A stretch of DNA of 64,000 nt from Saprospiraceae bacterium (GTDB lineage Bacteria > Bacteroidota > Bacteroidia > Chitinophagales > Saprospiraceae), in NCBI GenBank assembly GCA_020848995.1, contig JADLHA010000019.1, positions 1 through 64,000 on the forward strand, given 5' to 3'. The translations under genes were made by a program, and so were the position numbers. The notes under the pieces are model-generated. The model saw nothing but the letters and a program-made list of their open reading frames with translations. It did no database searches and had not been told where the DNA came from. The stretch's first letter is position 1. Each line of letters begins with the position of its first letter. Below, piece after piece: positions 10,230 through 60,779 of this stretch.

Positions 10230-11483
10230 TTGTTTTCAATGAAGCATCGGTCCCTTCTCCTTCTGCTCGTTTTCCTGAGCGCCCTAGCCGGGTGGTTTAT
10301 GGGCTACGTCAAACTGCCGTATATCGATACGAGCAAAGACTTTCTGCTCGGTTTCGTTGCCTGCATGTCGGCATTTTGCTGGTTCCAATTCCTGCGCTGG
10401 CTGTGGAACAAGCGGTCTGCTACTGTGAACTCCCCGTCGGTTGGTCCGGCAGCGCATCCCTTTGGAGCGAAGGGACTGCGTCTGTTTTTCATTTTGTCCT
10501 TTGTCCTGCTGGCCATGGCTGCTGCGGGATTGTATATCGGTCGCACGCTGCAAGCGGAGTTGAAGGCGGCGAGGGGGGAGCTTGCATCATTAAAACAGAG
10601 CGCCAGCGTCGACGAGCAAAAAAACAAATTGGGCGTGTTGGTGGAGCTGATCCGCGCACTGGATGCTGCAACCGCGCTGCAGGCTGGAAGCACCGGAGCT
10701 ACAGATTTGGAAAACCGCATCGTCGAAATGGGTGCATCCCTTTCTGTTCAGCGCGAATGGGATCCGGAAAGCAGGTCTTACCAGGAGCTCAGTGCAACCA
10801 GAGGCATGTTGCTGCTCGCACTGGTCAACACGGCGATGGATTCCAATTCTCTGAGCAAGATCCTCCGGCGCGTAAGCTTTTCCAGTGCTGATTTGCGCAA
10901 CGCGGACCTGCGCGGAAAGGATCTGCGCGGGATCGACCTGAGTTATGCCAATCTGAAAAACGCCCAACTGGAGGGCCTACGCCTCGACCATGCGGGATTG
11001 CGCGGCGCCAGTCTGGAGGGGGCCAATTTAGAGCGCGCATCGTTGGTCGGGACCAATCTGATCTCGGCGACGCTGAGCTGGGCGAAGATCAGCGGGGCCA
11101 ATCTGCATTCGGCCAGACTCGACAGCGCCGACCTGTCAAATGCCATTCTGGATAAAGCATCGCTCAATTATGCAACCCTCATTCAAACGACCCTGCACAA
11201 TGCCCTCCTGGCAGGTGCCGACCTGAGCAACTGTTTTCTGTGGGGAACGCAATTCTCAAATGTCAACTTATCCGGAGCCAAGCTAACGGGCGTTACCATT
11301 AGCGGAGCGCAGCTGGCAGATGCGAACATGCAGGATGCCATCGTCCCGGAAAACTGGGCAGATCTGCTGCGCGAAGAAGCCAATTTCGGGCTTGACGAAC
11401 ATTTTAAAAAATACCGCGTCGTACCGGACAGCCTGAGCATCCGGGATTCCCTGATTTTCAGGCTTGCTCCGGAATTTAGATGA
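10230..11483 (+). CDS. Membrane-anchored pentapeptide-repeat protein
   Basis: Two N-terminal hydrophobic segments, then A(D/N)LxxA repeats (ADLRNADLRGKDLRGIDLSYANL...). Confidence 0.9.
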   Translation: MFSMKHRSLLLLLVFLSALAGWFMGYVKLPYIDTSKDFLLGFVACMSAFCWFQFLRWLWNKRSATVNSPSVGPAAHPFGAKGLRLFFILSFVLLAMAAAGLYIGRTLQAELKAARGELASLKQSASVDEQKNKLGVLVELIRALDAATALQAGSTGATDLENRIVEMGASLSVQREWDPESRSYQELSATRGMLLLALVNTAMDSNSLSKILRRVSFSSADLRNADLRGKDLRGIDLSYANLKNAQLEGLRLDHAGLRGASLEGANLERASLVGTNLISATLSWAKISGANLHSARLDSADLSNAILDKASLNYATLIQTTLHNALLAGADLSNCFLWGTQFSNVNLSGAKLTGVTISGAQLADANMQDAIVPENWADLLREEANFGLDEHFKKYRVVPDSLSIRDSLIFRLAPEFR

Positions 11484-41614: not shown

Positions 41615-44233
41615 CTACCGGATTCCTGCCTTCTCAAACCACAGCATGCGCGTCGCACCCGAATGCGTGCGCAACAACAGCCCGTATTGCCCACCAGGCA
41701 ATCCATCGAGGGATAAGTGTTCTACAGGCTCCATCCTTTTCAGCAGGCGACCGGAACCGTCGATCAGTTGCATCTCCGCCAGCGCACCCCAACGCGTAGC
41801 GCGCAGCGTGATCCATTGGTCCGCAGGACTCGGGTACAGGTAGTAGTGAATGCCTTCGAGCCATTCCTCGGTTGCAGTATTGACCTCCACCCGGAATGGG
41901 AAATCCGCTATGCACCCGTTTGCATCTACTACCCTCAAGGTGTAATCTCCGGCAACCAGCGAGTCCCTCTGTTGCCCACTTACGGTCGCCGTATAGGGCG
42001 GTACGCCCCCGGTAATGACCAGGTTTTCAAGTCCCCCGTTATTCTTTCCCGGAGAAGCGGGGCGCACGCTGAAATTTGCCTTCAGCGCTTCAGGTTCAGA
42101 GAGCACAAAGGTAAACTCGGATTCCGTCTGCCTCGACGAGGTGATGGTCAGTTTATAGGTACCTGAACTAACGTTTGTTAGTGCTGGAGTTGTATCTCCC
42201 GTATTCCACCGAAAGCGAAAGGGGTCGGCCCCGAGGAGGTCTTCGACGGAGATGGATCCCTTTCCTCCGTTACAGGGTATGCTGTCAAAACGAACTTTGG
42301 TGATCTCCGGAACCGAACAGTCGTAAGGTATGTCTTTGCAGAGCACATCCGAGTCGCATTCTCCGATAGCGATCATGCAAATTCGCACCGTAGGGGCACT
42401 GCAATCGAGTACGTAGTTCACTTCGTTGCCAGACAGGGTGTCCTTACCGATGATCCACAGTGCATCGCCTGCATTTTTCGACTCGGAGCGGAGCATGATG
42501 AATTCGTAATCTTTGCTGACGCTGAAGTCTGCACTTGGGGCAAGGCTGAGTTGTTTGGTGAGGGTGTCGCGGATTCCCGCAGACAGGTTGTCGTAACGTC
42601 CGCTGGCGCTGACTTCCTGCCGGACTGCGCGCACCAGGTATTCATACCGGAAACCAGCCTGCAGGCAGGAGTCGGTATACGTGGTGTCGGTTAACCCACT
42701 GGCGATCACGTCAAACTGGGTGTTGCCCTCGATCTTGCGGCTGATCGTGTACCCGCCGGTGGCACCGGTTACTTTTCTCCACAGCAGTCGGATGGAATTG
42801 CCGGTTTCCGATAGACGAAGCTGTGATGGCCCCGCCCAGGGATGCAGCCGCAGGCTGGGGTCACCCATGAGGGCGATGTGGATTTGGCGCGCAAAGTTTC
42901 CTGCAACATAAGTCGATTGGTTGTTCATGCTGGTTCGCGCAGCGTACCCGATGGTCTCCCCAAGCCCCATATGGTGCAATACCCAAAGCGGTCTTCCCGA
43001 CCAGCCGTTTGACAATACCGTCCCGCTGGCCAGGGCGGCCCGGAGAAAATTGTTCGGACTATCCCAGTCGCCGAAGTAACTTCCAAACAAAAAGGTAAAT
43101 ACCGTCTGAAGGCTGTCGGTAGCCATGTTGGCCGTATTGGAAATTCCGTTGGCACTTGTATAACTGCCACTCCCCGCACCGAAGGAACAGAGGTAGGATT
43201 TTTTGAGCAGGCTGTCGCGGTAGCTTCCGTACACCACATTCTGGGGTCCAAAGAAACTCGAAAAATTTTTCATCCCGCTTTGGCCGAAGGCCTCCGCCTG
43301 GAAGTTAAAGTTGTCCTGCACGATCCCGCTTCGCTGGGCAGGGATCTGCCCGGTGCGCCACCTGTGGTTTTTATTGAGGTAGTTTCTCAGCAACTCGATT
43401 TCCGGTTTATTCAGTGCGGTCATGTTGAAAAAATCGACCCTTCCCACTTCGAGGTCTGCATCTGAAGGCAGGTTGGTCTGGTCAAATTTTCCATCTCCCG
43501 GGACATTCCGGTTGGCTTCCCGGCTGGCCGCCGCGTTGTCGACCATTAAATCCGTCCAGATGCCATCGAGATCGGCATAGTAAACGTCGGCCGGCCAGGC
43601 CCCTATGTGGTCGGGATGCGCATCCGGAGCCAGGTTTCCCGAATAGGGAACTTTGACATGCCCCAAAATGAAAACCGCGCGCAGATCCGGATGGATGAGT
43701 TTGAGGTCGCCGATGCGCTTGCGGATGTCGACGACCGACTGGCGCGAATCGGGGACAAAATTCAATACGTTCCACCCTTCGTTGGCCAGGTCGCTCTTCC
43801 AGGTAGCGATTTCCGCAACGAGCTGGGCGTTGACTGCGCTATCGACGAGCAGCAAAATGCTCCCGTTCCAATTCTGCGCGGGAAGGCCGGTGGAGGCATA
43901 CACGTAGCCCGATCCCGTTACCGAGGTGCTGCTGCGGACCACCCGGTATTCGTAAGCTTTCCCCTTTTCCACGGTCTTGTCGACATATAAGGTAGAGTCT
44001 GCAGGCAAGGTCGCCCGTACGGTTCCCCAGGAAGAGCTTCCTTTGTTCTTGCGGAATACGGTGTACCCGGTGGCATTCGCATCGTTGACCCATTGAAGGG
44101 TGATCTCGGGAGGATTTTCCGAAGTTTCCACCCAGATCTGAACGGAGGCTTTGATGCTGTAGTTCTGGGCCTGAATGCATGGGGCAAAGGCAATGAGTGC
44201 GGCAATGGCTAACCAGGAATACGGGCGGTGCAT
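41615..44233 (-). CDS. Large secreted protein with C25-like region, fibronectin III-like modules and T9SS C-terminus
   Basis: Signal peptide; ADVYYADLDGIW..; Fn3-like ATGYTVFRKN; C-terminal LYPSPADQWITLRA.. Confidence 0.75.
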   Translation of the reverse strand: MHRPYSWLAIAALIAFAPCIQAQNYSIKASVQIWVETSENPPEITLQWVNDANATGYTVFRKNKGSSSWGTVRATLPADSTLYVDKTVEKGKAYEYRVVRSSTSVTGSGYVYASTGLPAQNWNGSILLLVDSAVNAQLVAEIATWKSDLANEGWNVLNFVPDSRQSVVDIRKRIGDLKLIHPDLRAVFILGHVKVPYSGNLAPDAHPDHIGAWPADVYYADLDGIWTDLMVDNAAASREANRNVPGDGKFDQTNLPSDADLEVGRVDFFNMTALNKPEIELLRNYLNKNHRWRTGQIPAQRSGIVQDNFNFQAEAFGQSGMKNFSSFFGPQNVVYGSYRDSLLKKSYLCSFGAGSGSYTSANGISNTANMATDSLQTVFTFLFGSYFGDWDSPNNFLRAALASGTVLSNGWSGRPLWVLHHMGLGETIGYAARTSMNNQSTYVAGNFARQIHIALMGDPSLRLHPWAGPSQLRLSETGNSIRLLWRKVTGATGGYTISRKIEGNTQFDVIASGLTDTTYTDSCLQAGFRYEYLVRAVRQEVSASGRYDNLSAGIRDTLTKQLSLAPSADFSVSKDYEFIMLRSESKNAGDALWIIGKDTLSGNEVNYVLDCSAPTVRICMIAIGECDSDVLCKDIPYDCSVPEITKVRFDSIPCNGGKGSISVEDLLGADPFRFRWNTGDTTPALTNVSSGTYKLTITSSRQTESEFTFVLSEPEALKANFSVRPASPGKNNGGLENLVITGGVPPYTATVSGQQRDSLVAGDYTLRVVDANGCIADFPFRVEVNTATEEWLEGIHYYLYPSPADQWITLRATRWGALAEMQLIDGSGRLLKRMEPVEHLSLDGLPGGQYGLLLRTHSGATRMLWFEKAGIR

Positions 44234-47611: not shown

Positions 47612-48303
47612 GGGTTCTCCCTTTTGTCCGCATCACGGCCTTCAGGCCTGACTGCGCGGATGACTACAAAGCCTCCTCTGTCGTGGCCGGGAGACGGCGC
47701 TTCAAAATTATCCGGATCGGCAGTAGATAGGGTCTGCCAGCTACCGGTACTTTCAAAACCGCTCTTTGCGAGCAGTGCAAAAATCTCTTCGGGCGTGTAA
47801 AGGCGGGCATGGCGAAAGTAGGCATTTTCGGCGGCGTGGCTTGCGTAGCGCTGACCCAGAGCACTTAGGGCCGAAAGGATGCCGAGTACGAACACACCAC
47901 CCGGACGCAGGATGCGGTGTACTTCTGCAAAAGCACGAGTGGGATTTTCCAAAAAACATACGGTCGTTATCATGGCCGCATAGTCAAAACGCGCGTCCTC
48001 AAACGGGAGCGTTTCCGCCACGGCCCTCACCACGCGTAATCCGCGGGCTTCGGCAATGCGGGCCATCCCTTCTGCGGGCTCTACCCCTGTACCCATCCCC
48101 AAGGCCAGGGAAAAACGGCCCGTGCCCGCTCCAATTTCCACGCCATCGCCTTGCTGTGGCATGGCAGCTTTCAACGCGGAAAGTTCAGAGGCGAAGGCCT
48201 CCGGATGGCGGTCATACCAGGCATCGTAGTCCTCTGCCCCCTCGTCGAAAACGCGAATGGCCTCCCGCATGGGTTCGGATTCTTCGTGATTGATGACCGT
48301 CAT
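47602..48303 (-). CDS. Class I SAM-dependent methyltransferase
   Basis: GVEIGAGTGRFSLALGMGTGVEPAEGMARIA; ILRPGGVFVLGIL. Confidence 0.93.
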   Translation of the reverse strand: MTVINHEESEPMREAIRVFDEGAEDYDAWYDRHPEAFASELSALKAAMPQQGDGVEIGAGTGRFSLALGMGTGVEPAEGMARIAEARGLRVVRAVAETLPFEDARFDYAAMITTVCFLENPTRAFAEVHRILRPGGVFVLGILSALSALGQRYASHAAENAYFRHARLYTPEEIFALLAKSGFESTGSWQTLSTADPDNFEAPSPGHDRGGFVVIRAVRPEGRDADKRENPWT

Positions 48304-48535
48304 TTCTTCAAAACTAGCCTTCCGCCAAGTTAGCCAATTGTTGGCGATGTCTGAAAAGATTTCTCCGGGATGTCTCCCCACGCACACTGCGCACCGGATT
48401 TTTACAATGCGCGAGTGTCCGCGTTTTCCCCCCAAGGATCGCAGATTTTGTCCTTAACTACCTTGCGTCAAACGGATTCCTGTCCGCCCGGAACAGGCTA
48501 GTCCCCTCTCCAACGGTCCAAACTCCACCTCCTAG

Positions 48536-48583
48536 ATATAACTCAAGTTATATTGCACATCCCTGCTGCTTGCATCAATTTTG
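48536..48583 (+). promoter_or_regulatory. Dyad/promoter site A of putative LuxR-RR regulon
   Basis: ATATAACT-CA-AGTTATAT, then TATATT + 25 nt + TTTGCAT. Confidence 0.6.
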
Positions 48584-49039
48584 CATTCGCTCAACCTTAC
48601 TACACGATGATATCCTCCCTTTGTCTGCTCCACAACCCCATCAAACTTACGGGTGTTAGCGCTGGGATTCCGCAAAAAGGGGAAAAACACCCCGGGAAAA
48701 GGGGGAAAGCGCCGGTGGTGCTTGTTTACTTTTTCTCTATTTTTGTTCGTCTGCCGGTGCTCTGGGAAAGCTCCTTCCCAACCCTGTCCTGACCCCCGAT
48801 TGAATCATGACTGAAAAAACCATTGATCCCTGCAGTTCGACGATCCCGTGTGTGGTTCATTTGAATCCATTCATTTTATTTTCCACCGGCTTCCACCGCT
48901 TTGCTACACAAGCCCACGAAGCTCCATGTCTGGGCTTTGCACCTTGCAAGACTCCTTCAGTTCGGATCATTCCTTTTGGACCGTGCAAGCCATTCTTCCT
49001 GCCAACGCGAATTCTTTCACTTATTCATACCCCATCATC

Positions 49040-49600
49040 ATGAAAACTTTTTTTGCTTTCCGAACTTTTTCGCTTACTACCCTTTGCGGCATCCTGTTAA
49101 CCTCCACCGCCTTCCTGTTCTTTTCACAATGCAAACAGGCGCAGGAAAAGGAAATGGCCGCTCCGGCCGGGTCATCGGGTTCTGTCGCTGCCGATGCGCC
49201 AAAGGGTATTTTCCTGGCTGAGATGCCTGCCGTCGATACCTCGGTTGCAAAACTGATGATCGAACAATGGGTTCAGATCGTCGGCGGTCTGAGAAATGTA
49301 CAAAGTGACAGCGTTGAGCATGCAGTCATTTTTCCGAGAACCTCCATTAGCAATTTGCTCCAGTCGATTCCCAATCAGGGTGCTCTGGTACTCCATTTTG
49401 GAAACTACGCAGACACTCCCGCTGTCAGGAGCTATCTGCAGGCAAATGGCAAAATGGAATACCTCAATAAATTTTCCGTCATCATGGCCGTTCTCGATTC
49501 AGCGGGCAATTACGTTGATCAGCCCCTGGTTAACCTGGGGGGGCTCTGTCCGCCTGATTGTCCCAAAGGCAGTGTGCGCTTGCGGCAATTTGGTTATTGA
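49040..49600 (+). CDS. Hypothetical lipoprotein upstream of two-component system
   Basis: Signal peptide with FFSQC lipobox. Confidence 0.65.
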   Translation: MKTFFAFRTFSLTTLCGILLTSTAFLFFSQCKQAQEKEMAAPAGSSGSVAADAPKGIFLAEMPAVDTSVAKLMIEQWVQIVGGLRNVQSDSVEHAVIFPRTSISNLLQSIPNQGALVLHFGNYADTPAVRSYLQANGKMEYLNKFSVIMAVLDSAGNYVDQPLVNLGGLCPPDCPKGSVRLRQFGY

Positions 49601-49626
49601 TCTTGCAGGAGCCACTGGTAAGACAG

Positions 49627-50274
49627 ATGGACCTCTATAGGGACCTGATCCTGGTCGCTTGTGTCCTGGAAGGCATTGTTAGGCTTCAGGGAAAGAGAAG
49701 CCTTACCTGCTTTTTTCCCTATATTTTCCTGATTGCCCTAGCTGAAAAAGTGCTGCGGCTCATGGTGCCGATGGAACACGGAACCAACTACTGGTTTTAT
49801 AACCTGCTCATCATCGTGCAGATCCAGTTTTTTGCTGCGTTCTATGCCACTGCCCCCACCTTGAGCAAGCAATCGCACAAGATCTGGATATTTTCCCTTT
49901 TGGTTTCGGCGATTTCCGCAGTCAATTTCCTTTGGGGTCAGGGCATGCACACGGTCAACAACATCAGTTACCTGTTGGGGTTGAGTTTTATTCTTTTACT
50001 GGTTGCCATGTATTTCAGAAATCTAATCTCGCAGGAACTTCCGGTCAATCTGCGCTCGGAGCCGCTGTTCTGGCTTTCAATAGGTATCCTGTTTTTTTAT
50101 GCTTCCTGTTTTCCCTACCTGGTCTTTGTCAACGCCATTGTCAGCAGCTCAGTTCCTGCATTCAAATCGCTTTACACCCTGGTTCAAATTGGAAATATTT
50201 TCCTAAGTTTGGCCTACATTATGGTTCCGCTATGTACGTTGACGACCAGGCGCTCCTGCAAAAAATCATATTGA
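49627..50274 (+). CDS. Hypothetical multi-TM membrane protein
   Basis: About six hydrophobic segments; 3' end overlaps histidine kinase ORF. Confidence 0.7.
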   Translation: MDLYRDLILVACVLEGIVRLQGKRSLTCFFPYIFLIALAEKVLRLMVPMEHGTNYWFYNLLIIVQIQFFAAFYATAPTLSKQSHKIWIFSLLVSAISAVNFLWGQGMHTVNNISYLLGLSFILLLVAMYFRNLISQELPVNLRSEPLFWLSIGILFFYASCFPYLVFVNAIVSSSVPAFKSLYTLVQIGNIFLSLAYIMVPLCTLTTRRSCKKSY

Positions 50275-51032
50275 CCGCATTCATCGTGCCGGTGGTCCTT
50301 GCAGGATTGCTGGTGGGCTTTCTGGTTTACTACCAGAAAAAGAAATATCAGCACAAGCTGGAGACGATGGCCCTTCAATTGCGCGAGCAACAGCTCCTGC
50401 TCGAAAAGCAGCAGGCGGTTGAACGGGAGCGCGACCGCATCGCAGGAGAGATGCACGATGACCTTGGCTCAGGACTTACCACCATACGTTATCTCAGTGA
50501 CCGGGCGTTTCACAAGGCGTCAGGAGAAAACGAAAAAGTGCAAATGCTCAAAATTGCTGAGTACAGCAGCCGATTGTTGAAAAACACGTCGGAGATCATC
50601 TGGGCGCTGAACCTGCGCTACGATACCCTTGGGAACCTGATCGCTTACCTGCGGCATTATGCTCATGAATACCTTGAGGAAAACCAAATTCCCTTGAGAT
50701 GGTCCCAGGATGGGCTCCCCGAGGAAAGCAAGATGAGTGGTGAGCGGAGAAGAAACATACACTTGTGCGTTAAAGAAGCCCTCCACAATTTGGTAAAACA
50801 CGCAAAGGCCAATAAAGTGGAAATCTCCTGCATGTTGGAAAACAACCAGGTATGCATGCGCATCGCCGACAACGGATGCGGTTTTGACCCGGAGCTCAAC
50901 GGCAACCTCGGCAACGGTTTGTACAATCTCCATCGGCGCATGGCGGTCGCCGGCGGCTCTGCATCCATAGAATCGGGTGACACAGGTTCCGTAGTCGTTT
51001 TGTCGTTTCCCGTCGCAGACGTTTCCATTTAA
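50232..51032 (+). CDS. Sensor histidine kinase (HisKA_3/NarX-LiaS type)
   Basis: ERERDRIAGEMHDDLGSGLTTIRYLSD H-box; NLVKHAKANKVEI N-box; DNGCGFDPELNGNLGNGLYNLHRR. Confidence 0.92.
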   Translation: MYVDDQALLQKIILTAFIVPVVLAGLLVGFLVYYQKKKYQHKLETMALQLREQQLLLEKQQAVERERDRIAGEMHDDLGSGLTTIRYLSDRAFHKASGENEKVQMLKIAEYSSRLLKNTSEIIWALNLRYDTLGNLIAYLRHYAHEYLEENQIPLRWSQDGLPEESKMSGERRRNIHLCVKEALHNLVKHAKANKVEISCMLENNQVCMRIADNGCGFDPELNGNLGNGLYNLHRRMAVAGGSASIESGDTGSVVVLSFPVADVSI

Positions 51033-51440
51033 CCACGGTTATATGTCCTTCCCCTCGGGAATTTCGAACTTTGCCTTCGCAGATGTAGCTTTTCAACCCG
51101 TGCTTCGGCAGCTACCGGATCGAATACCGCAAGGCGCGATTGATTTCAGAAACTGCCTACAGCAACAGGGCACAAGGATGTGGGGCTTATCAGCACGTGT
51201 CCGGCAAAAACGGCTCGCTTACAATTACCGCCTATGTTCCCCTTCTTCTGGCACCCATTGGGGTCAATGGGCATTCAGTGCGTTGCCAACAAACGGGACT
51301 CGTCCAGTAGGCGAGCATCATGAATTGTCCGATTTACTGAACCGCAACGTATTTATGCTTTCATTTCAGTACTTTTACCTGAATCCCATGACCCCGGCTA
51401 AAACCCCTTCCAGCTCCATTATGCTTCATCCGCTCCTGCC

Positions 51441-52064
51441 ATGATGACCATCGCCATCCTCGAAGACCTCAGGGATCTTGCCTCCATGATCCAGGAAATT
51501 GTCGAAGCCGAACCGGACATGTCTTGCAAGCAGGTGTATCACACCGCCGAAGATGCCATCCGCTTTTTGCCGCAAAATCCAACCGACCTTCTGGTTGTGG
51601 ACATTGGTCTCCCAAGAGCCAGCGGCATCGAAGCTATGCAAACCCTGGGTCTGCTCTGTCCGTCCATGCTGTTTTGCATGTTTACGGTTTACGAAGACGA
51701 CGAAAAGATCTTCAGGTCCCTGCAGGCCGGCGCCCGAGGCTACATCCTCAAAGGTTCCACCCCTGCACACATCGTTTCAGCCCTTAGAGAACTCTACCAT
51801 GGCGGCTCTCCCATGTCGGCGAGCATTGCCCGCCGCTTGCTGGAGCTGATCCGCAGGTTGCCCCCCATCCAAACCGCTGCAGCGCTCCCCATCACCCCTC
51901 GCGAGCGAGAATTGCTGGAATGGCTCTCCCAGGGCCTGCTGTACAAGGAAATATCGGATAAAATGGGCATCACCACCGGAACGGTCAAACAACACATCCA
52001 TAAAATCTATCAAAAACTGCACGTGACCAACCGGACGGAAGCAACGAATCGACTCAAGGGGTGA
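51441..52064 (+). CDS. LuxR/NarL-family response regulator
   Basis: REC domain with VVDIGLPRASG; LTPREREL-like ITPRERELLEWLSQGLLYKEISDKMGITTGTVKQHIHKIYQKLHV. Confidence 0.95.
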   Translation: MMTIAILEDLRDLASMIQEIVEAEPDMSCKQVYHTAEDAIRFLPQNPTDLLVVDIGLPRASGIEAMQTLGLLCPSMLFCMFTVYEDDEKIFRSLQAGARGYILKGSTPAHIVSALRELYHGGSPMSASIARRLLELIRRLPPIQTAAALPITPRERELLEWLSQGLLYKEISDKMGITTGTVKQHIHKIYQKLHVTNRTEATNRLKG

Positions 52065-52184
52065 ATTTTCCTTATTGCTAACGCTTGTTGTCCTCTCTAT
52101 CTCCTACGCTCCCCTTTGATCTTCTCTGAGCTCTGCTGCAAAGCACGATCCCGTTTTTGGGCGATTTAAGTCCATTGCTCCCCG

Positions 52185-52231
52185 TATAACCTAGGTTATA
52201 TTCCCCAACATGCATAGCGCTGTCACCTTTG
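52185..52231 (+). promoter_or_regulatory. Dyad/promoter site B
   Basis: Perfect palindrome TATAACCTAGGTTATA, then TATATT + 25 nt + TTTGCAT, 12 nt before ATG at 52243. Confidence 0.65.
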
Positions 52232-52242
52232 CATAAACTTCA

Positions 52243-53676
52243 ATGATGAAATACCTATACATCCTCCTTTTCACTTTAGTCGCAAGTGCCACCTTTGGAC
52301 AGTCTTTGCTACAACTCCTTCAAAAGAAGCAGCGCCCCGCTTATGCTCCTTCAGATCTCAGCCTATTAGACCTTACTCCTATCCCTCCAGTTGTAAATCT
52401 TTCAGAGATCTCACATGATTCTTCAATTGCTGATTCCAATCAACATAGCTCCACTATTCGAACTCAATATGACAGTTTGAACCGATTTTTACCGACTGAA
52501 AACGACAGCATTAACATTATTATAAGCAAATATAGAGATGTGGATTCAACCATGCAGTCATTTCGTCAAAAATACTTTCAAAATCTTCAATTAAACTATC
52601 AAACGCGGCTTATTGATCTGGAAACATTTCTAAGCATAAATAAAACAAAGACCCGTGAAAGTGAAATTAACTACTATCTCCTTGAAGAGAAGGTTAAAGA
52701 TATAAAACTCTCCCAATCCGCCAACATCATGAGTAATCAGGTGTTTCGCGACAGCTTGGAAAATATTCTTCGGGATTTATATATGACCTGGTTTGACATC
52801 GAGCTCATTAAAAGCACCTATTCAAAACTGGAGGAAGAAAAACAGAATGTCAGCAATAAGAATTTATCAACCTTACATCCTGATTCGGCTGATATAACAT
52901 ATATTTTTCGTAACGCAGATTTTCTTAGAAATAGATTAGACACCGGTCTAAAACAAATGAATGAAACCTTCCGCGCATTAAAAGACCGCATTACAAAAAC
53001 CAACCTCGGGCTCCCCAAATCTTCCAATGCAATATCCACTTCCCCAGCCTTAAACAACTTTGCGAATAAATTTAGTCCCTCCCTTACTTTATTAGGCTCG
53101 GCAAAATTTGGCAAGAATTACAACGAACTTGGCCTCTTCACAGGGGGGCTGTTTAATGGAGGGAATCCGTCCAAGGAAGCCATCTTCTTTCATGATTTGT
53201 CGGACTTCTCAATCTACTACAAGGGTGCAAGTTCCGCCATAGCCCTCGTAGATACCAATCAAAAAACTGGACTCAATTACGAGATTTACTTTATGAGTAA
53301 ACAATTGGGCGCTGATTCGGCGTTAGGAATTTCAGCAATTAGCTACCATTCCATTCAGTTAAAAGCCGGATTCGAATATGTCGTATATAAAAATATTGCC
53401 AGCATATATTCAAACATCAATTATCATTTGCCCTTATCGCAGAGGTCTGTCCTTGAAAAGGTTTACGGTTCCAATCGTCTTGATCAGATCAATTTTGATG
53501 TTGGGGTGAAAATGTTACTGAACCCATCGCAAACAGGCAATGGCGGAACCAACTTATTTGTTGATGTCAACCTGATGTTTCTGACAAATTCAATGAAAAC
53601 GGCTTTAAAATCAAAAGACAGCTTGCTTCCGGGTCTAAGAATAGGTGTGCAACAAAGGCTTACGAAGTTTGAATGA
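52243..53676 (+). CDS. Hypothetical secreted/outer-membrane-associated protein
   Basis: Long ORF with signal peptide (FTLVASATFGQS). Confidence 0.75.
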   Translation: MMKYLYILLFTLVASATFGQSLLQLLQKKQRPAYAPSDLSLLDLTPIPPVVNLSEISHDSSIADSNQHSSTIRTQYDSLNRFLPTENDSINIIISKYRDVDSTMQSFRQKYFQNLQLNYQTRLIDLETFLSINKTKTRESEINYYLLEEKVKDIKLSQSANIMSNQVFRDSLENILRDLYMTWFDIELIKSTYSKLEEEKQNVSNKNLSTLHPDSADITYIFRNADFLRNRLDTGLKQMNETFRALKDRITKTNLGLPKSSNAISTSPALNNFANKFSPSLTLLGSAKFGKNYNELGLFTGGLFNGGNPSKEAIFFHDLSDFSIYYKGASSAIALVDTNQKTGLNYEIYFMSKQLGADSALGISAISYHSIQLKAGFEYVVYKNIASIYSNINYHLPLSQRSVLEKVYGSNRLDQINFDVGVKMLLNPSQTGNGGTNLFVDVNLMFLTNSMKTALKSKDSLLPGLRIGVQQRLTKFE

Positions 53677-53814
53677 TACCCCTTCTAATTTGAAAAACCT
53701 TTATCCTGATTCAAGTAATTGGATACAGATCACTTCTATTTGGACTTGACGGCCTTTATGCCATATCCACCACCCACTAACTGATGAATTTTCCTTCATC
53801 TATAATTTTTATTC

Positions 53815-56800
53815 ATGCAAAAATCTTTACATTTTACTATTTTAGTCTTCCTCTGCACTGTTGCGGGGATTTCTCAGAACGGTCCAGCCGAGCTTTGGCG
53901 TTATTCAACTGGCGGTTCGCGAAGTGAACAAGGTGTTTCCGTACTGGAATGCACCGATGGCGGATCTTTGCTCATCGGAAGTACCGATTCTAAAGATGGT
54001 AAGGTCACCGGGCAACATGGCCTTACTGATGCATGGATTGTCAAAAGAAAACCAAACGGTACAGAAGACTGGCAGCAATGCATTGGAACCGGTGAAACAG
54101 AGTACGCACACCAAGCCGTTGAAGTGGCCGATGGCTACGTGGTGGTCGGACAAAAGAATTACCATGCCTGGATTTTTAAAATCAATAAATACGGAGTATT
54201 CATCTGGGAAAATACTTTTCCAACAAGTGCACGTTCTGCATTGTTAGCGATTCGAATAAAGCCTGATGGAACGTTTATGGTTGGTGGATATAAAAATGGG
54301 TACTACGGAGATGCCATGTTGTGGAATTTAAGCAGTGAGGGAAGCCTCATAAATGGTGTTTCCTTTAATAACGGAAGCGCAATCCATCAAATCAGGTTTA
54401 CCACAGATGGCAATATGCTGATCATGGGTGATTATAGAAACAATGAAGAAGGCTGTTTTACCAATAGCGAAGTTCCAGCTTTCGGTGACTTGTGGCTAGC
54501 TAAAGTTTCCAATAGTTTTCAAGTCATTTGGAGTAAATATTATGGAGGCACAACTTACGATGACTTCGTCGACGGAGAAATTACCAGTGGCAATGAAGTC
54601 TACTTATTAGGTAGAACATACTGCAAAGGGCAAATTACCGGGCCAAACAATATTGGTCGAAACTGGCGTGGATTTGGCACGGAAATATTTACCTGGTTGG
54701 CCAAGGTCAATGCTTCGGGGAATCTTGGTCCTGCGATCATTGTCAGTGTAGCTTATCCGGATTATACAGCAGATTATCACTGTGTTACGGTGGACTGCAG
54801 AGATCAACCAGTGATTGGTGGCGGTCAGGGCAGCCTATCGGGCAGTTCTCCGGCCATGGTAAAATATTCCAGCGACTTGACAGGGGGAATCTGGTCAGCA
54901 GAATTGACAGGCGATCCTTCGTTTACATATGATTTATTCGATATCCACTTCCCCTCTGATGCTGCCTATCTTGCTTGTGGTTCTCAAGATGATCAAGATG
55001 GAAATTATGATCCGGATTACCTCGTTTTAAAGACAACAAAAGATCCTGTTTGCGCAGGTTCTGCAAATAAATGCCAAAACATTACGCCTATATCCTGCGG
55101 ACAGACTTACAACGGAAATACTGCGGGAAGAGCCAATGCTTTTAACATTTCAGATCTCAGTTCATGTCACAATTCATCCAATAATTTTTCAGCACCAGAC
55201 CAATTGTTTGAAGTATACAAACCCAATTCGTCTGGCGACCTTGTCATCACTTTGTTCAGCAATGACATCGATCACGATATTTTTCTATTGTCAAGCTGCA
55301 ATCCAGTCCAGTGTCTTTATAAAAGTTCAAACCCAGTGGGATCCAATGGAAACAACATCGAAATCATACGCGTAAACAATGCACCTGCAGGTTATTATTA
55401 CATTTTGGTAGATGGATCTCAGGGCTGGCATGCCGGACCTTTTTCACTGACGGTCAACTGCGGATTGCTGGACTGCGGCAATGCCAAACCTATCGAATGC
55501 AAACAAATCTTGGTCAATGAGACCAATCAAAATGGTTTTAATAATGTGAGTTTGTATTGCAACCCTTCAAGTATTTCTGATCCTGGAACCGGTTGTACGG
55601 CGAAAGAAAAAGTGTACAGCTTTCAAATTAATAGCACCCAAAATGTCACCATTAGTCTAAGCAACATCAGAGACCCTAATGACGATTTTGAAATGTTTCT
55701 ATTTAAAGACTGTAATGAGGATGTATGTCTGGATTATAGTGTCAATCCAAAAGGTCAAAATGAAACCATTACCAGACAACTTTCAGCAGGAAGATATTAT
55801 ATCGTTGTCGATGGCTGGAAAAACAGTGAAGGGAATTATGACCTTACGGTTGACTGGAATTGCTGCAGCAATCCTGTTGAGATATATAATTGTGGCTACA
55901 TAACTTACAAATATGCAGGCAGCGGTAATGACCTTAAATTTACTTTTACCAGCAGCAAAGCCATTGCAACCGGAAAAAAATGGAAAGTAGGGAATACGGA
56001 AATATCAACAGCGACAGGCCCCAGTTTCACCTATACTTTTCCTAATGTCGGTGAATACATCATTTGCTTTCCTTATCTGAATGCCAACAACTGTTTGGAA
56101 TATTGCTGTTATCGGGTCTGGATATCCAATCCGTTCGATTGCTTCTTGTTTGATTATAAATTTAATCCCTCAAATAATAATTATACGTTTTCCTTAGACC
56201 TTGCCGGTGCCTCCAACATCGTATGGAAAGATGATACCGGAGGCGGCACCATTGGAGGAGGGCCCATCTCAAACCCCATTCCGGCTCCACCCGGAAGTGG
56301 TTGTGTTGAAAAAACCATAACGGTAACCTACTATCTCAATGGGAGATGGTACATCTGTTGCAGAAAAATATGGATCTGCAATCCTTTCGACTGCCTGGAA
56401 TTTGACTATCGCTTTGACTTGAATGCCAACGGAATGGTCTTCCAACTTAACAATGCCGGAGCATCTTACATCACCTGGAAAGATGATACCGGAGGTGGTG
56501 ACATCGGTGGTGGCCCCATTTCGAACCCTTTGCCTGTACCACCTAATCCCGGCGATTGCATTGAGCGAATCATCTCCGTCAAATATTTTGCAAACGGTCG
56601 CTGGTATTTGTGTTGCCGGCGAGTATGGATTTGCAATCCTTTCGAATGCCTGGAATTTGACTATCGCTTTGACTTGAATGCCAACGGAATGGTCTTCCAA
56701 CTTAACAGTGCCGGAGCATCTTACATCACCTGGAAAGATGATACCGGGGGTGGTGACATCGGTGGTGGTCCTATTTCTAATCCATTGCCCGTACCTCCTA

Positions 56801-57651
56801 ATCCAGGAGATTGCATTGAGCGTATCATTTCCGTCAGATATTTTGCAAACGGTCGCTGGTATTTGTGTTGCCGGCGAGTATGGATTTGCAATCCTTTCGA
56901 CTGTGGAAATATAATTTTCCGTTATGATCTAAACGCCAGGGCTTATCAATTTGAATTAACCCAGAGCGGTGCATCTCTAGTGACCTGGAAGGACGATACA
57001 GGTGGAGGCAGCATCGGAGGGGGGCCTATTTCAAATCCTGTACCTCCGCCAACTTCTGGTCCTTGTGAAGAACGAATCATAACAGCCCGCTATTTTTACA
57101 ATGGTCGTTGGTACATCTGTTGTAAGCGGTTTTGGCTGTGCGATCCGAAAATTTGCTCAGGGATCATTCAGTCCAATGTGCTTCCTAGCGGACAGGTTAA
57201 CTTGAATGTATCTTCAAGCTATACGGATGTCTTTTGGTATAACCAACTAACCGGTACCTTGCTGGGGACGGGAACTTCCCTTCAAGTCAATTTTCCCTAC
57301 GGCAGCAGCCAGGAAATATGTGTGCAATACATCGATAATGGCAGAACCTACATGTGCTGTAAAAATATTACCGCTGTTGACGTACAAGATCCGGCGATCA
57401 AGAAAGCTTCAATACATATTCATCCGAATCCCAATTCTGGACATTTCATGGTATCCCTTCAACATTTAGACCCTAATACCATGGTACTAAACGTCTTTAA
57501 TTTACAAGGTGTTATACAAACAGACGTTCGTTATTTCAATGTCTATTCACAAAAGCTTACTATCGATGCGAGCCTATTATCTCCAGGCTGGTACTGCTTG
57601 CAAATCCTCTCAGAGGGCATGGTATTGTATAAACAATTTGAGATATTGTAG
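53815..57651 (+). CDS. Large secreted T9SS cargo with repeated Cys-containing modules
   Basis: Signal peptide; propeller-like N-terminus; four ~85-aa repeats; C-terminal IHIHPNPNSGHFMVSL...GWYCLQILSEG. Confidence 0.9.
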   Translation: MQKSLHFTILVFLCTVAGISQNGPAELWRYSTGGSRSEQGVSVLECTDGGSLLIGSTDSKDGKVTGQHGLTDAWIVKRKPNGTEDWQQCIGTGETEYAHQAVEVADGYVVVGQKNYHAWIFKINKYGVFIWENTFPTSARSALLAIRIKPDGTFMVGGYKNGYYGDAMLWNLSSEGSLINGVSFNNGSAIHQIRFTTDGNMLIMGDYRNNEEGCFTNSEVPAFGDLWLAKVSNSFQVIWSKYYGGTTYDDFVDGEITSGNEVYLLGRTYCKGQITGPNNIGRNWRGFGTEIFTWLAKVNASGNLGPAIIVSVAYPDYTADYHCVTVDCRDQPVIGGGQGSLSGSSPAMVKYSSDLTGGIWSAELTGDPSFTYDLFDIHFPSDAAYLACGSQDDQDGNYDPDYLVLKTTKDPVCAGSANKCQNITPISCGQTYNGNTAGRANAFNISDLSSCHNSSNNFSAPDQLFEVYKPNSSGDLVITLFSNDIDHDIFLLSSCNPVQCLYKSSNPVGSNGNNIEIIRVNNAPAGYYYILVDGSQGWHAGPFSLTVNCGLLDCGNAKPIECKQILVNETNQNGFNNVSLYCNPSSISDPGTGCTAKEKVYSFQINSTQNVTISLSNIRDPNDDFEMFLFKDCNEDVCLDYSVNPKGQNETITRQLSAGRYYIVVDGWKNSEGNYDLTVDWNCCSNPVEIYNCGYITYKYAGSGNDLKFTFTSSKAIATGKKWKVGNTEISTATGPSFTYTFPNVGEYIICFPYLNANNCLEYCCYRVWISNPFDCFLFDYKFNPSNNNYTFSLDLAGASNIVWKDDTGGGTIGGGPISNPIPAPPGSGCVEKTITVTYYLNGRWYICCRKIWICNPFDCLEFDYRFDLNANGMVFQLNNAGASYITWKDDTGGGDIGGGPISNPLPVPPNPGDCIERIISVKYFANGRWYLCCRRVWICNPFECLEFDYRFDLNANGMVFQLNSAGASYITWKDDTGGGDIGGGPISNPLPVPPNPGDCIERIISVRYFANGRWYLCCRRVWICNPFDCGNIIFRYDLNARAYQFELTQSGASLVTWKDDTGGGSIGGGPISNPVPPPTSGPCEERIITARYFYNGRWYICCKRFWLCDPKICSGIIQSNVLPSGQVNLNVSSSYTDVFWYNQLTGTLLGTGTSLQVNFPYGSSQEICVQYIDNGRTYMCCKNITAVDVQDPAIKKASIHIHPNPNSGHFMVSLQHLDPNTMVLNVFNLQGVIQTDVRYFNVYSQKLTIDASLLSPGWYCLQILSEGMVLYKQFEIL
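56123..57150 (+). repeat. Tandem ~255-bp (85 aa) coding repeats
   Basis: NPFDCLEFDYRFDLNANGMVFQLNNAGASYITWKDDTGGGDIGGGPISNPLP.. repeated; two central copies nearly identical in DNA (period 255 bp). Confidence 0.9.
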
Positions 57652-57917
57652 TCGTACAAAGTAATTTAAACTTTTGCCGGGGATTTTCAAAATAGAAATT
57701 CCCCGGCATACTCTCTAACTTTTTTGGCTGGTAGTCCAACAAATCAGTCGAAAATGGACCATGCAAATGAAAGATTGGGGCTTGATAATAAATCAGCTAA
57801 CCATCTTATTCCCAGAAAGGGTGTAACAAATCCAATTTATTAACTTACTTCGATTCGAAACAGGTCCGATCACTTACACAAAATTCTTTACAAGCTCTCT
57901 CGGAATCATTTTTTTTG

Positions 57918-57943
57918 AATTTTGCGATTATAATCGCAAAATT
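57918..57943. promoter_or_regulatory. Perfect 26-bp palindrome
   Basis: AATTTTGCGATTA|TAATCGCAAAATT. Confidence 0.7.
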
Positions 57944-58131
57944 AATATAAAAATAGCGATTGAAATCTTGAAAATGATAAATTGTTTACGCTTTTACATT
58001 GAAACAGAGAACTGTATTTAATCGTGGTCCGCAGATAGAGACCCTGCTCCTAATTTATAAAGCCCGAAGGGCACTTCATTTTTTCTTGCTTTGCTTGGTA
58101 TTTATACCTCTATTCATTTAAATGCAAGTTT

Positions 58132-59334
58132 TCAACTGTTTTTACTTGCACCGCTAAAAATACGGCCATCCTCAAAAGTAATTTGACTACAAAATATTCT
58201 CCATGGATACACGCTTAACCCGTTTGTTCTTTTTTGGATGGAATCTCCACCGTATAAAACAATGCCCTCCCGGCAGGCACTTATTTTTTTATAGAAATTT
58301 AAGTTTTTAAAGTATTCTGCCCCAATCGTTTTTCCCGATTTAATTTCAATGGGGAGAATGTTGTTGTTTTGTTCAATGATGATATCTATTTCGTGGCCCG
58401 ATTTGTCTCTCCAAAAATATAAGTCAACTGGAAGACCTGCATTGGCAAAGTTTTTAACCAATTCAGTAACTACCATATTCTCAAATATAGCACCTCTTGC
58501 AGCATGAATATTCAAGTATGCTGCATCCTGAATTCGCAACAAATAACAAACTATGGCCGTATCGTAAAAATATATCTTGGCCCTTTTTACAATGGTTTTT
58601 CTGAAGTTTTTATAATGAGGTTTCAATAAATAAATAATAAAACTGCTTTCCAGAATGCCAATCCACGATTGTACCGTTTTAACATCTACACCGGCTTCAA
58701 GCGCCAATGCACTGAAGTTGAGTTCTTGGCCTACCCGCCCTGCAAGCAATTTTACAAATCGTTCAAAAACCAATAGATCGTTGATGTTTTTAATCAAACG
58801 CACATCCCTTTCAATATAGGTTTTTATGTAATTAGGGCACCAATCCGCAGCAGGAATATGCTGGTCATAAATTGGGGGGTAAAAACCCTGAAGCATCAAT
58901 TCATCATCAGTTTGGGGCAACAACGCTTTACTGTCCAATTCATTCAACGAAAATGGTAACAAATTCAAATAAGCTATACGTCCAGCCAGCGATTGTGAAA
59001 TGGACTGTTGCATCAAAAAATTGTTGGATCCCGATAAAATAAAAAGTCCCCTTTCCTGGCTTTTGTCCAATATTTCCTGCAAGTAAGAGAATAACTCGGG
59101 AGTGCGCTGAACTTCATCTAAAACTGCTCCTTTGTGGTACAAACCTAAGAATGCCCTGGGATCCTTTAAGGCGAACTCACGATCATCAGGATTCTCAAGT
59201 GACACATAAGGCTTCTCTTTAAATAAACGTTGAATAAGTGTAGTTTTTCCCGTTTGACGAGCTCCGGTTACGGCGACTGCCTTGAACTTAGAGGCCAAAT
59301 CCAGTAGCTTTTGCCCTGCAATTCTCGTAATCAT
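58132..59334 (-). CDS. AAA ATP-binding protein with DUF4143-type C-terminus
   Basis: AVTGARQTGKTTLIQRLF Walker A; GAVLDEVQRTPELFSYLQ; SGSNNFLM; FWRDKSGHEIDIIIE. Confidence 0.95.
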   Translation of the reverse strand: MITRIAGQKLLDLASKFKAVAVTGARQTGKTTLIQRLFKEKPYVSLENPDDREFALKDPRAFLGLYHKGAVLDEVQRTPELFSYLQEILDKSQERGLFILSGSNNFLMQQSISQSLAGRIAYLNLLPFSLNELDSKALLPQTDDELMLQGFYPPIYDQHIPAADWCPNYIKTYIERDVRLIKNINDLLVFERFVKLLAGRVGQELNFSALALEAGVDVKTVQSWIGILESSFIIYLLKPHYKNFRKTIVKRAKIYFYDTAIVCYLLRIQDAAYLNIHAARGAIFENMVVTELVKNFANAGLPVDLYFWRDKSGHEIDIIIEQNNNILPIEIKSGKTIGAEYFKNLNFYKKISACREGIVLYGGDSIQKRTNGLSVYPWRIFCSQITFEDGRIFSGASKNS

Positions 59335-59356
59335 TGGACAAATTTATAGAATTTTT

Positions 59357-59371
59357 TGGAATCTGATTCCA
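59357..59371. promoter_or_regulatory. Palindrome upstream of the AAA ATPase
   Basis: TGGAATC-T-GATTCCA, 23 bp upstream of the start codon. Confidence 0.45.
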
Positions 59372-59480
59372 TAAAAAGACAGTTTCAATGCATTTTGACG
59401 ACCCGAAACATAATGGGATATTCTCAAATGCACCGAATAATGCAATTTCCGTATCCGGACCTTACGCTTAGTTTTCTGCG

Positions 59481-59645
59481 CCTAACACAGGTTATATTTC
59501 CCATCGTGCTAACAAATCGGAACTTTGCGTAATGCTTCGTTGAAACTAAGTTAAGCTTTGTAACCGATTTAAGAATTCAGGGATATGGACAGCCTGCTTC
59601 CCGGTCTAAAAATGGGAGTGTAACAAAGGCTTACTGATATTGAAT
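59481..59645 (+). pseudogene. Internally deleted paralogue of the 52243 locus (promoter site C plus 3' end)
   Basis: CAGGTTATATT + 25 nt + TTTGCGTAA; GGACAGCCTGCTTCCCGGTCTAAAAATGGGAGTGTAACAAAGGCTTAC matches 53616-53670. Confidence 0.7.
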
Positions 59646-60779
59646 GATGTTTCCCCGTCCCACCAGCCCCTCATACACGCCGAGGGTTTCCTTAGCTGAA
59701 AGACTGCCAACGGCATTTGCGTGCACGGAATGCCAGGCATTTTGTTGAAAACCCGCGTGCTGATTTGGCGAGCAGTGAAGCAGGAAATCGTACTGTGCCG
59801 AAAGTGCCTCCACGTCCCCTTCCGCAGCCAGCAGACCGTTGTATCTGTGCACGAGCAGGTCGGGAATGTCGCAATGGGGGGATGCCAGTGCCGGACGACC
59901 CAGTGCCAGGCTGTCCTTCAAAAAAACCGGACAACCCCCTTCCGTGTCGCCCTTTTCCGTCCTGCGGCTCCACTGAACGCTCCAGTCGGCACGTCGGATG
60001 GCCTGCAGATAGCGCCCTTCGTCCAGCGGACCGCACAGCGCAACGGAATGCTCCGGATGACGCCGGGCCCAGCCCGCGATCTCGCGGTAATACGAACGAT
60101 CGTTAGGTTCTCCGTAAAAAGTAAATGCAATCTTCCCGGCATGGCGCGACTTTAGAGCTTCCAGCACCCCAAGCTGATTTTTCTTCTCCGTAAAGGTTGC
60201 CAGCTGTACCAGGTTCAGCGGGCCTCCTGCAGGAATCCTCTGCACCATTGGGCCCCGGTCAAAAAGCATGTGCACGATGTGAATGGACTCCGCCGGAACC
60301 CCGTAGCGGATCAACAGGCTCCGCGAATAATTTCCCTCCACGATAAACACCCCTCCTCCCTCCGCCAGCCTCCGGTAACCCTCCAGCGCCTTCGGGTTTC
60401 TCTGCACGAGGTACTCATAGTCGAAACCATACAGCGACACGCAAAAGGGTCTGCCACTGCTCAATAAAAATTTCGCATGTCGAAGCGCCATGTGTCCGAA
60501 ATGCACGTGCATCAATGCGACCCCTTTCAATGCGCCTTCGTCCAGCTCCGGCCGCTGCAGCCATCGCTGTAAGCGCACGCTCCATGACAAAGGATAGGTA
60601 TTGACACGGGAAAAATTGACCGGGCGTCGCCCCTGCGGTGGTTCGCAAATGTAATGGTCGGCATAAATCGCGTGCGAGCACCGCCCTTCTGTCAACGCCA
60701 TCATCTGCTCAAGCCAGCGCATCGTCAGCGGCAAATAGCTGTCGACGAGATGCAGCACTTCAATCTTCGACATCCGCAC
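59631..60779 (-). CDS. Glycosyltransferase (GT4-like)
   Basis: HVHFGHMALRHAKFLL, FTEKKNQLGVLEAL, CPVFLKDSLALGRPALASPHCDIPDLLVHRYNGLL. Confidence 0.85.
   Translation of the reverse strand: MRMSKIEVLHLVDSYLPLTMRWLEQMMALTEGRCSHAIYADHYICEPPQGRRPVNFSRVNTYPLSWSVRLQRWLQRPELDEGALKGVALMHVHFGHMALRHAKFLLSSGRPFCVSLYGFDYEYLVQRNPKALEGYRRLAEGGGVFIVEGNYSRSLLIRYGVPAESIHIVHMLFDRGPMVQRIPAGGPLNLVQLATFTEKKNQLGVLEALKSRHAGKIAFTFYGEPNDRSYYREIAGWARRHPEHSVALCGPLDEGRYLQAIRRADWSVQWSRRTEKGDTEGGCPVFLKDSLALGRPALASPHCDIPDLLVHRYNGLLAAEGDVEALSAQYDFLLHCSPNQHAGFQQNAWHSVHANAVGSLSAKETLGVYEGLVGRGNIIQYQ

Follow-up and report, generated by a model that had tools for sequence, protein, structure and literature searches.

What reads the short inverted repeats that recur around a two-component regulatory locus of a Saprospiraceae bacterium, and what follows from their position beside candidate promoters? 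The question is raised by a 64,000-nucleotide stretch (contig JADLHA010000019.1 of assembly GCA_020848995.1, positions 1 to 64,000; hereafter the window), in which dyads of the type TATAAC-N4-GTTATA stand at a near-fixed distance upstream of TTTG, the 3' part of the TAnnTTTG core promoter used by Bacteroidota sigma-A (PMC9723704, PMC7366714). These sites surround genes for a lipoprotein, a transmembrane (TM) protein, a histidine kinase (HK) and a NarL/LuxR-family response regulator (RR) encoded from position 51441. As judged from the sequence comparisons below, the dyad is very probably the binding site of the 51441 RR. It is also highly likely that this regulator, bound to dyads beside a -33/-7 promoter, activates its own cassette and the adjacent secreted-protein unit.

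Dyad and promoter spacing in the window and the family

Four sites were located in the window:

Site A, 48536..48584, + strand: dyad TATAAC-TCAA-GTTATA plus TT, 25 nt (N25), then TTTGC; predicted promoter of the lipoprotein-TM-HK operon.
Site D, 51028..51074, + strand: slightly decayed site TAACCACGGTTATATG-N24-TTTGC at 51030, located between HK and RR, where it overlaps the stop codon of the kinase gene; predicted operator-promoter of the RR gene.
Site B, 52185..52232, + strand: perfect dyad TATAACCTAGGTTATA plus TT, N25, then TTTGC; predicted promoter of gene 52243.
Site C, 59481..59528, + strand: partial dyad TAACACAGGTTATATT (TAAC/GTTA), N25, then TTTGC; apparent relic promoter.

The sequence TAACNNNNGTTATATT begins at 48539, 52187 and 59483 and is followed each time by exactly 25 nt and TTTGC, in full agreement with the coordinates and spacing that the initial annotation had given for sites A, B and C. 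TATATT, which it had treated as an element apart from the dyad, is in fact the dyad's right arm (AATATAAC/GTTATATT). All three members of its site set exist, but it overlooked site D, which has 24 nt before TTTGC and an arm ending in TATATG. It had also described the leading T of TAnnTTTG as unconserved, and this was borne out: the base is C, C and G at sites A, B and C, the following A being kept in 3/3. At all four window sites the -7 box lacks its first T and retains the A and TTTG.

Genome-wide scans showed how restricted this arrangement is. With at most one mismatch, TAACNNNNGTTATATT-N25-TTTG has 3 matches in the 3.14-Mb genome (52 contigs), which are sites A, B and C, and the same places are the exactly three genome-wide matches to TAAC-N4-GTTATATT-N25-TTTG. 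Occurrence of the motif across the genome without promoter spacing had been named beforehand as an outcome that would refute the proposal; it was not seen, the three matches all lying at the places first reported. The reversed pattern, at most one mismatch allowed, had no match in the whole genome. At 0 mismatches, TAACNNNNGTTATAT occurs genome-wide only at sites A, B, C and D, all confined to 11 kb around the RR gene. Chance likeness among AT-rich intergenic sequences could be entertained, given that the -7 word alone (TANNTTTGC) shows no excess in the window over shuffles. However, the combination of dyad and -7 word is enriched, the joint dyad-N25-TTTG pattern being expected by composition about 0.002 times per genome against 3 observed. 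Together with the sharp cross-genome spacing peak described next, this makes chance a negligible prospect.

To examine spacing across the family, 395 Saprospiraceae genomes were scanned for TATAACNNNNGTTATA with a TTTG 12-42 nt downstream. Among the matches listed, 43 have a spacing of 27 nt between dyad and TTTG and 15 a spacing of 26 nt, whereas every other spacing has about 3 (Poisson P ~1e-33); counted in this way, 27 nt after GTTATA equals 25 nt after TATATT. No secondary peak was found one helical turn from 26-27 nt. The bases of TAnnTTTG that had not been queried are present at the peak as well (T in 32/43 and A in 38/43 of the matches listed), the dyad centre is mostly AAAA and the orientation is fixed. 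In addition, many sites carry TTG after the dyad, and most sites in relatives point toward a gene, at a median distance of 57 nt. A like search of a phylum-drawn sample of 396 genomes gave no 27-nt spacing peak.

Association of the dyad with the response regulator

The genes around the sites, all on the + strand, are as follows:

49040..49600, +: membrane-anchored protein or lipoprotein, 186 aa, of a family with C-terminal NxGxLCPxxCP (N, G and both C invariant).
49627..50274, +: multi-spanning membrane protein, 215 aa, a kinase partner conserved at 24-49% identity in relatives' cassettes.
50232..51032, +: HisKA_3/HATPase_c sensor kinase, NarX/UhpB/LiaS-like (PF07730).
51441..52064, +: NarL/LuxR-family RR, 207 aa, with recognition helix TGTVKQHIHKIYQKL.
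52243..53676, +: 477-aa protein with an N-terminal signal-like sequence and no family match; first predicted target of site B.
53815..57651, +: 1278-aa type IX-secreted protein (PPC domains, Por_Secre_tail).

It is established for the NarL/LuxR family that a C-terminal domain dimer reads dyad operators. The 51441 RR has the corresponding architecture, with a receiver matching Pfam Response_reg (E8, D9, D54, T82 and K104 invariant among 24 relatives) and a C-terminal GerE/LuxR helix-turn-helix (HTH; PF00196, E=1.7e-16). Its cognate HisKA_3 kinase adjoins it here, and an HK is adjacent in most relatives too. Structurally solved members of the family (DesR, NarL, VraR, DevR/DosR) share this receiver-HTH organization and full-length similarity, but the half-site and the Bacteroidota promoter context differ. 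The RR falls below the NCBIfam equivalog cutoffs (NarL, UhpA, MctR and others), with a best score of 97 bits against a cutoff of 250, and no sequence-close characterised member was found.

In relatives, the sites recur at three positions of the cassette: ahead of the lipoprotein/TM/HK genes, between HK and RR (as D) and just after the RR (as B). All three are occupied in one genome (G004), and a second (G003) has the HK-RR gap and post-RR sites. Equivalents of site A precede lipoprotein/TM/HK genes in G004, G010, G320, G351 and G215, and equivalents of site D occur in G004, G003, G073, G310 and G355, and at a paralog locus. Presence and absence agree within the genus: among its 9 genomes, 0-mismatch sites of spacing 27 occur in 5/5 that have an RR ortholog (identity 64% or higher) and in 0/4 that lack one (Fisher P 0.008), and one match in the sister genome G006 (contig C60) looks like chance. 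At family level, 17/27 genomes with the motif and 3/28 without it have an RR relative (E<1e-45; P 7e-5); for full-length relatives with an identity of 49% or more, the numbers are 13 and 0. An HTH-only search added further cases, for instance G242 and G327, with HTH and site on the same contig.

The dyad also varies with the recognition helix. Motif-linked RRs have the helix TVKQHIHKIY in common. A paralogous HK-RR pair in the same genome (G000:C21:6144-10284, L076) encodes an RR that is 65% identical, with helix KQSIHRIY; its HK-RR gap holds the variant dyad CACTAACCAAGGTTACGC, found in the sister genome's paralog as well, with TTTG 28 nt after GTTA, not 29. The RR of G313, with helix KVQIRTIY, is accompanied by the dyad TATTACTAAAGTAATA at spacing 27. 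Outside the family, RRs with a [KR]QHI helix are preceded at 49-68 bp by an AAC-type dyad (12/15, against 2/60 in other classes), those of the RKHVY class by a TACC..GGTA dyad (10/17 against 0/58), and those of the KKHVG class (Chryseobacterium) by TTACAC-N4-GTGTAA (9/14 against 1/61), with TTTG at exactly 27 nt. The P values for these pairings (1e-7 to 1e-9) are descriptive and overstate independence, because the same data served both to define and to count the patterns, and each class is a clade. Altogether, spacing peak, cassette neighbours, genus co-occurrence and helix/dyad pairing support the proposal of the initial annotation that a dyad at fixed distance from the promoter has the 51441 regulator as its probable ligand.

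On balance, it seems probable that a Bacteroidota-wide NarL-type subfamily keeps one operator-promoter for autoregulation between HK and RR, with a dyad fused to -33, a near-fixed distance to -7 and half-sites that diversify with the recognition helix. Under the same joint proposal, the half-sites would be GTTATA for KQHI, GTTCTATTG for RQHI, GTGGTATTG for RKHVY and GTGTAA for KKHVG. If true, this helix/half-site series is natural material for reading the DNA-recognition code of the family. Outside Bacteroides, the known transcription-factor operators of Bacteroidota are few, and a literature search returned nothing relevant for Bacteroidetes about operators of NarL-type regulators or their autoregulation. 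A NarL-type regulator with a putative class-II-like operator is of a known kind; the apparent divergence of an operator series across Bacteroidota is of interest. Furthermore, the paralogs and homologs with other helices and dyads offer a test set both for the DNA-recognition code and for activator action on a Bacteroidota promoter.

Promoter geometry and the proposed effect of binding

The TAnnTTTG box of Flavobacterium psychrophilum occupies positions -12 to -5 (PMC9723704). With this position borrowed, the dyad spans about -51 to -36, centred near -43.5, and the bases directly after it (TT, often then G) occupy the -33 position. From the -7 position, transcript starts are predicted at ~48588 (A), ~51078 (D) and ~52236 (B), giving an expected leader of ~7 nt for gene 52243. 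Relative to Bacteroidota sigma-A promoters (sigma-ABfr; -7 TAnnTTTG, -33 TTTG), the -7 element stands at fixed distance in relatives and is degenerate in the window, and the -33 position is here fused to a putative activator dyad. The layout resembles class II activator promoters, in which the operator is centred near -41.5 (~-42 in examples such as CRP class II and LuxR on the lux box), in that the dyad centre is at ~-43, the arm abuts -33/-35 and the spacing to the core is rigid. It differs in that the core is the Bacteroidota TAnnTTTG, not the E. coli -35/-10, and contacts with RNA polymerase are putative.

These features suggest a mechanism in which a phosphorylated RR dimer would bind TATAAC-N4-GTTATA, whose downstream arm would run into the -33 region of a sigma-A promoter with a degenerate -7 box (TAnnTTTG). 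From this class-II-like place, the RR could contact RNA polymerase and would switch on lipoprotein-TM-HK through site A, its own gene through site D, and 52243 and 53815 through site B. We infer that binding depends on phosphorylation and that the system answers a signal, the 49040-49600 lipoprotein family being possibly the sensor. Activation rather than repression is inferred because the spacing is rigid with no peak one turn away, the window -7 boxes are imperfect and the position is class-II-like.

Several observations weigh against a direct activator role of the 51441 RR, beside the limited independence of the helix classes. Site A would have a leader of ~450 nt to its first gene. Strong sites occur without a close RR in G212, G389, G289 and G315; the first of these, a 99% complete genome, has four high-scoring sites (C12, C50, C64, C94) and no close RR relative. 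In such genomes another regulator may share the motif, or the RR may lie in an assembly gap. The reverse is seen in G001, whose RR carries the same helix: the motif is present elsewhere in that genome, but the 15-kb RR contig has no scoring site. Finally, overlap of the right arm with the -33 region would look position-fixed for a repressor too.

RRs of the NarL/LuxR family can activate or repress, and negative autoregulation by the same RR, blocking access to -33 at these sites, would fit the overlap just mentioned. A repressor needs no single rigid spacing, however, while the observed peak is limited to 26-27 nt, and the window -7 boxes without a leading T are those expected of activator-dependent promoters, so that repression appears unlikely. 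A different transcription factor, common to the family, could instead be what reads the dyad, with the RR just a frequent neighbour or target; this would account for the four genomes named above and for some sites distant from any RR. Such a reading accords poorly with the presence/absence agreement in the genus, the repeated placement in the HK-RR gap and beside the RR, and the change of dyads with the RR recognition helix, and is judged quite unlikely.

The ~450-nt leader downstream of site A is nearly invariant with respect to the sister genome.

Site C, the predicted targets and neighbouring features

The initial annotation had counted site C among the working sites. It exists, but it is a partial dyad without an intact downstream gene, and is better regarded as a relic than as a third target. 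Close to it lies one further feature:

59588..59648, + strand: pseudogene tail, second copy of 52243-53676 (84% over 61 bp, E 1e-14, in-frame stop).

This tail corresponds to the 3' terminus of gene 52243, B and C are alignable over 50 bp of promoter sequence (34/50), and the dyad of site C is decayed in the sister genome (TGAC...GTTTTATT). Site C is therefore most simply read as the remains of the promoter of a deleted duplicate 52243 unit. A small-RNA promoter at site C was considered and set aside: window positions 48000-60000 gave no Rfam match, and the pseudogene tail accounts for the site.

Identity to the sister genome over 47880-53600 alternates between patches of 97-100% (~48480-49830 and 52700-53600) and stretches of 70-90%, which suggests recombination or gene conversion. 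Because regional identity is mosaic, the high identity at sites A and B is not an independent sign of constraint. Such patchiness, and the duplication of part of the B unit by site C and its flank, would suit a dispersed repeat or a recombination or inversion site with no regulatory role. This was rejected because the spacers of sites A, B and D are mutually unrelated and site orientation follows the genes; with relatives' sites mostly aimed at a gene and a -7 box at fixed distance in many genomes, it is very improbable.

The regulator, its predicted operators and the promoter geometry are all readable from sequence alone, and the predicted targets are few, namely its own cassette and a unit with a type IX-secreted protein. 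Gene 53815 probably comes second in the site B unit. A homolog of 52243 (25%) in L165 is located after an RR plus a weak site, and a type IX sorting domain is present in 6/44 genes sampled near sites in the window and in relatives. The 49040-49600 protein had no match in Pfam or NCBIfam.

Between a D-type site and the RR, G004 (L080:8265-8582) and both paralog loci (L076, L079) encode a small protein of ~105 aa with a C-terminal TM-like segment; the HK-RR gap of the window (~370 nt) holds no recognisable copy. The window holds further TAACNNNNGTTA palindromes, at 11284, 38454, 42169 and 47101; they were discarded as candidate sites, having neither outer arms nor promoter spacing. A distinct palindrome, TAACNNNNGTTAG(AT), occurs without promoter spacing at window positions 42169 and 47101 and on contigs C11, C16, C20, C26 and C31 of the same genome.

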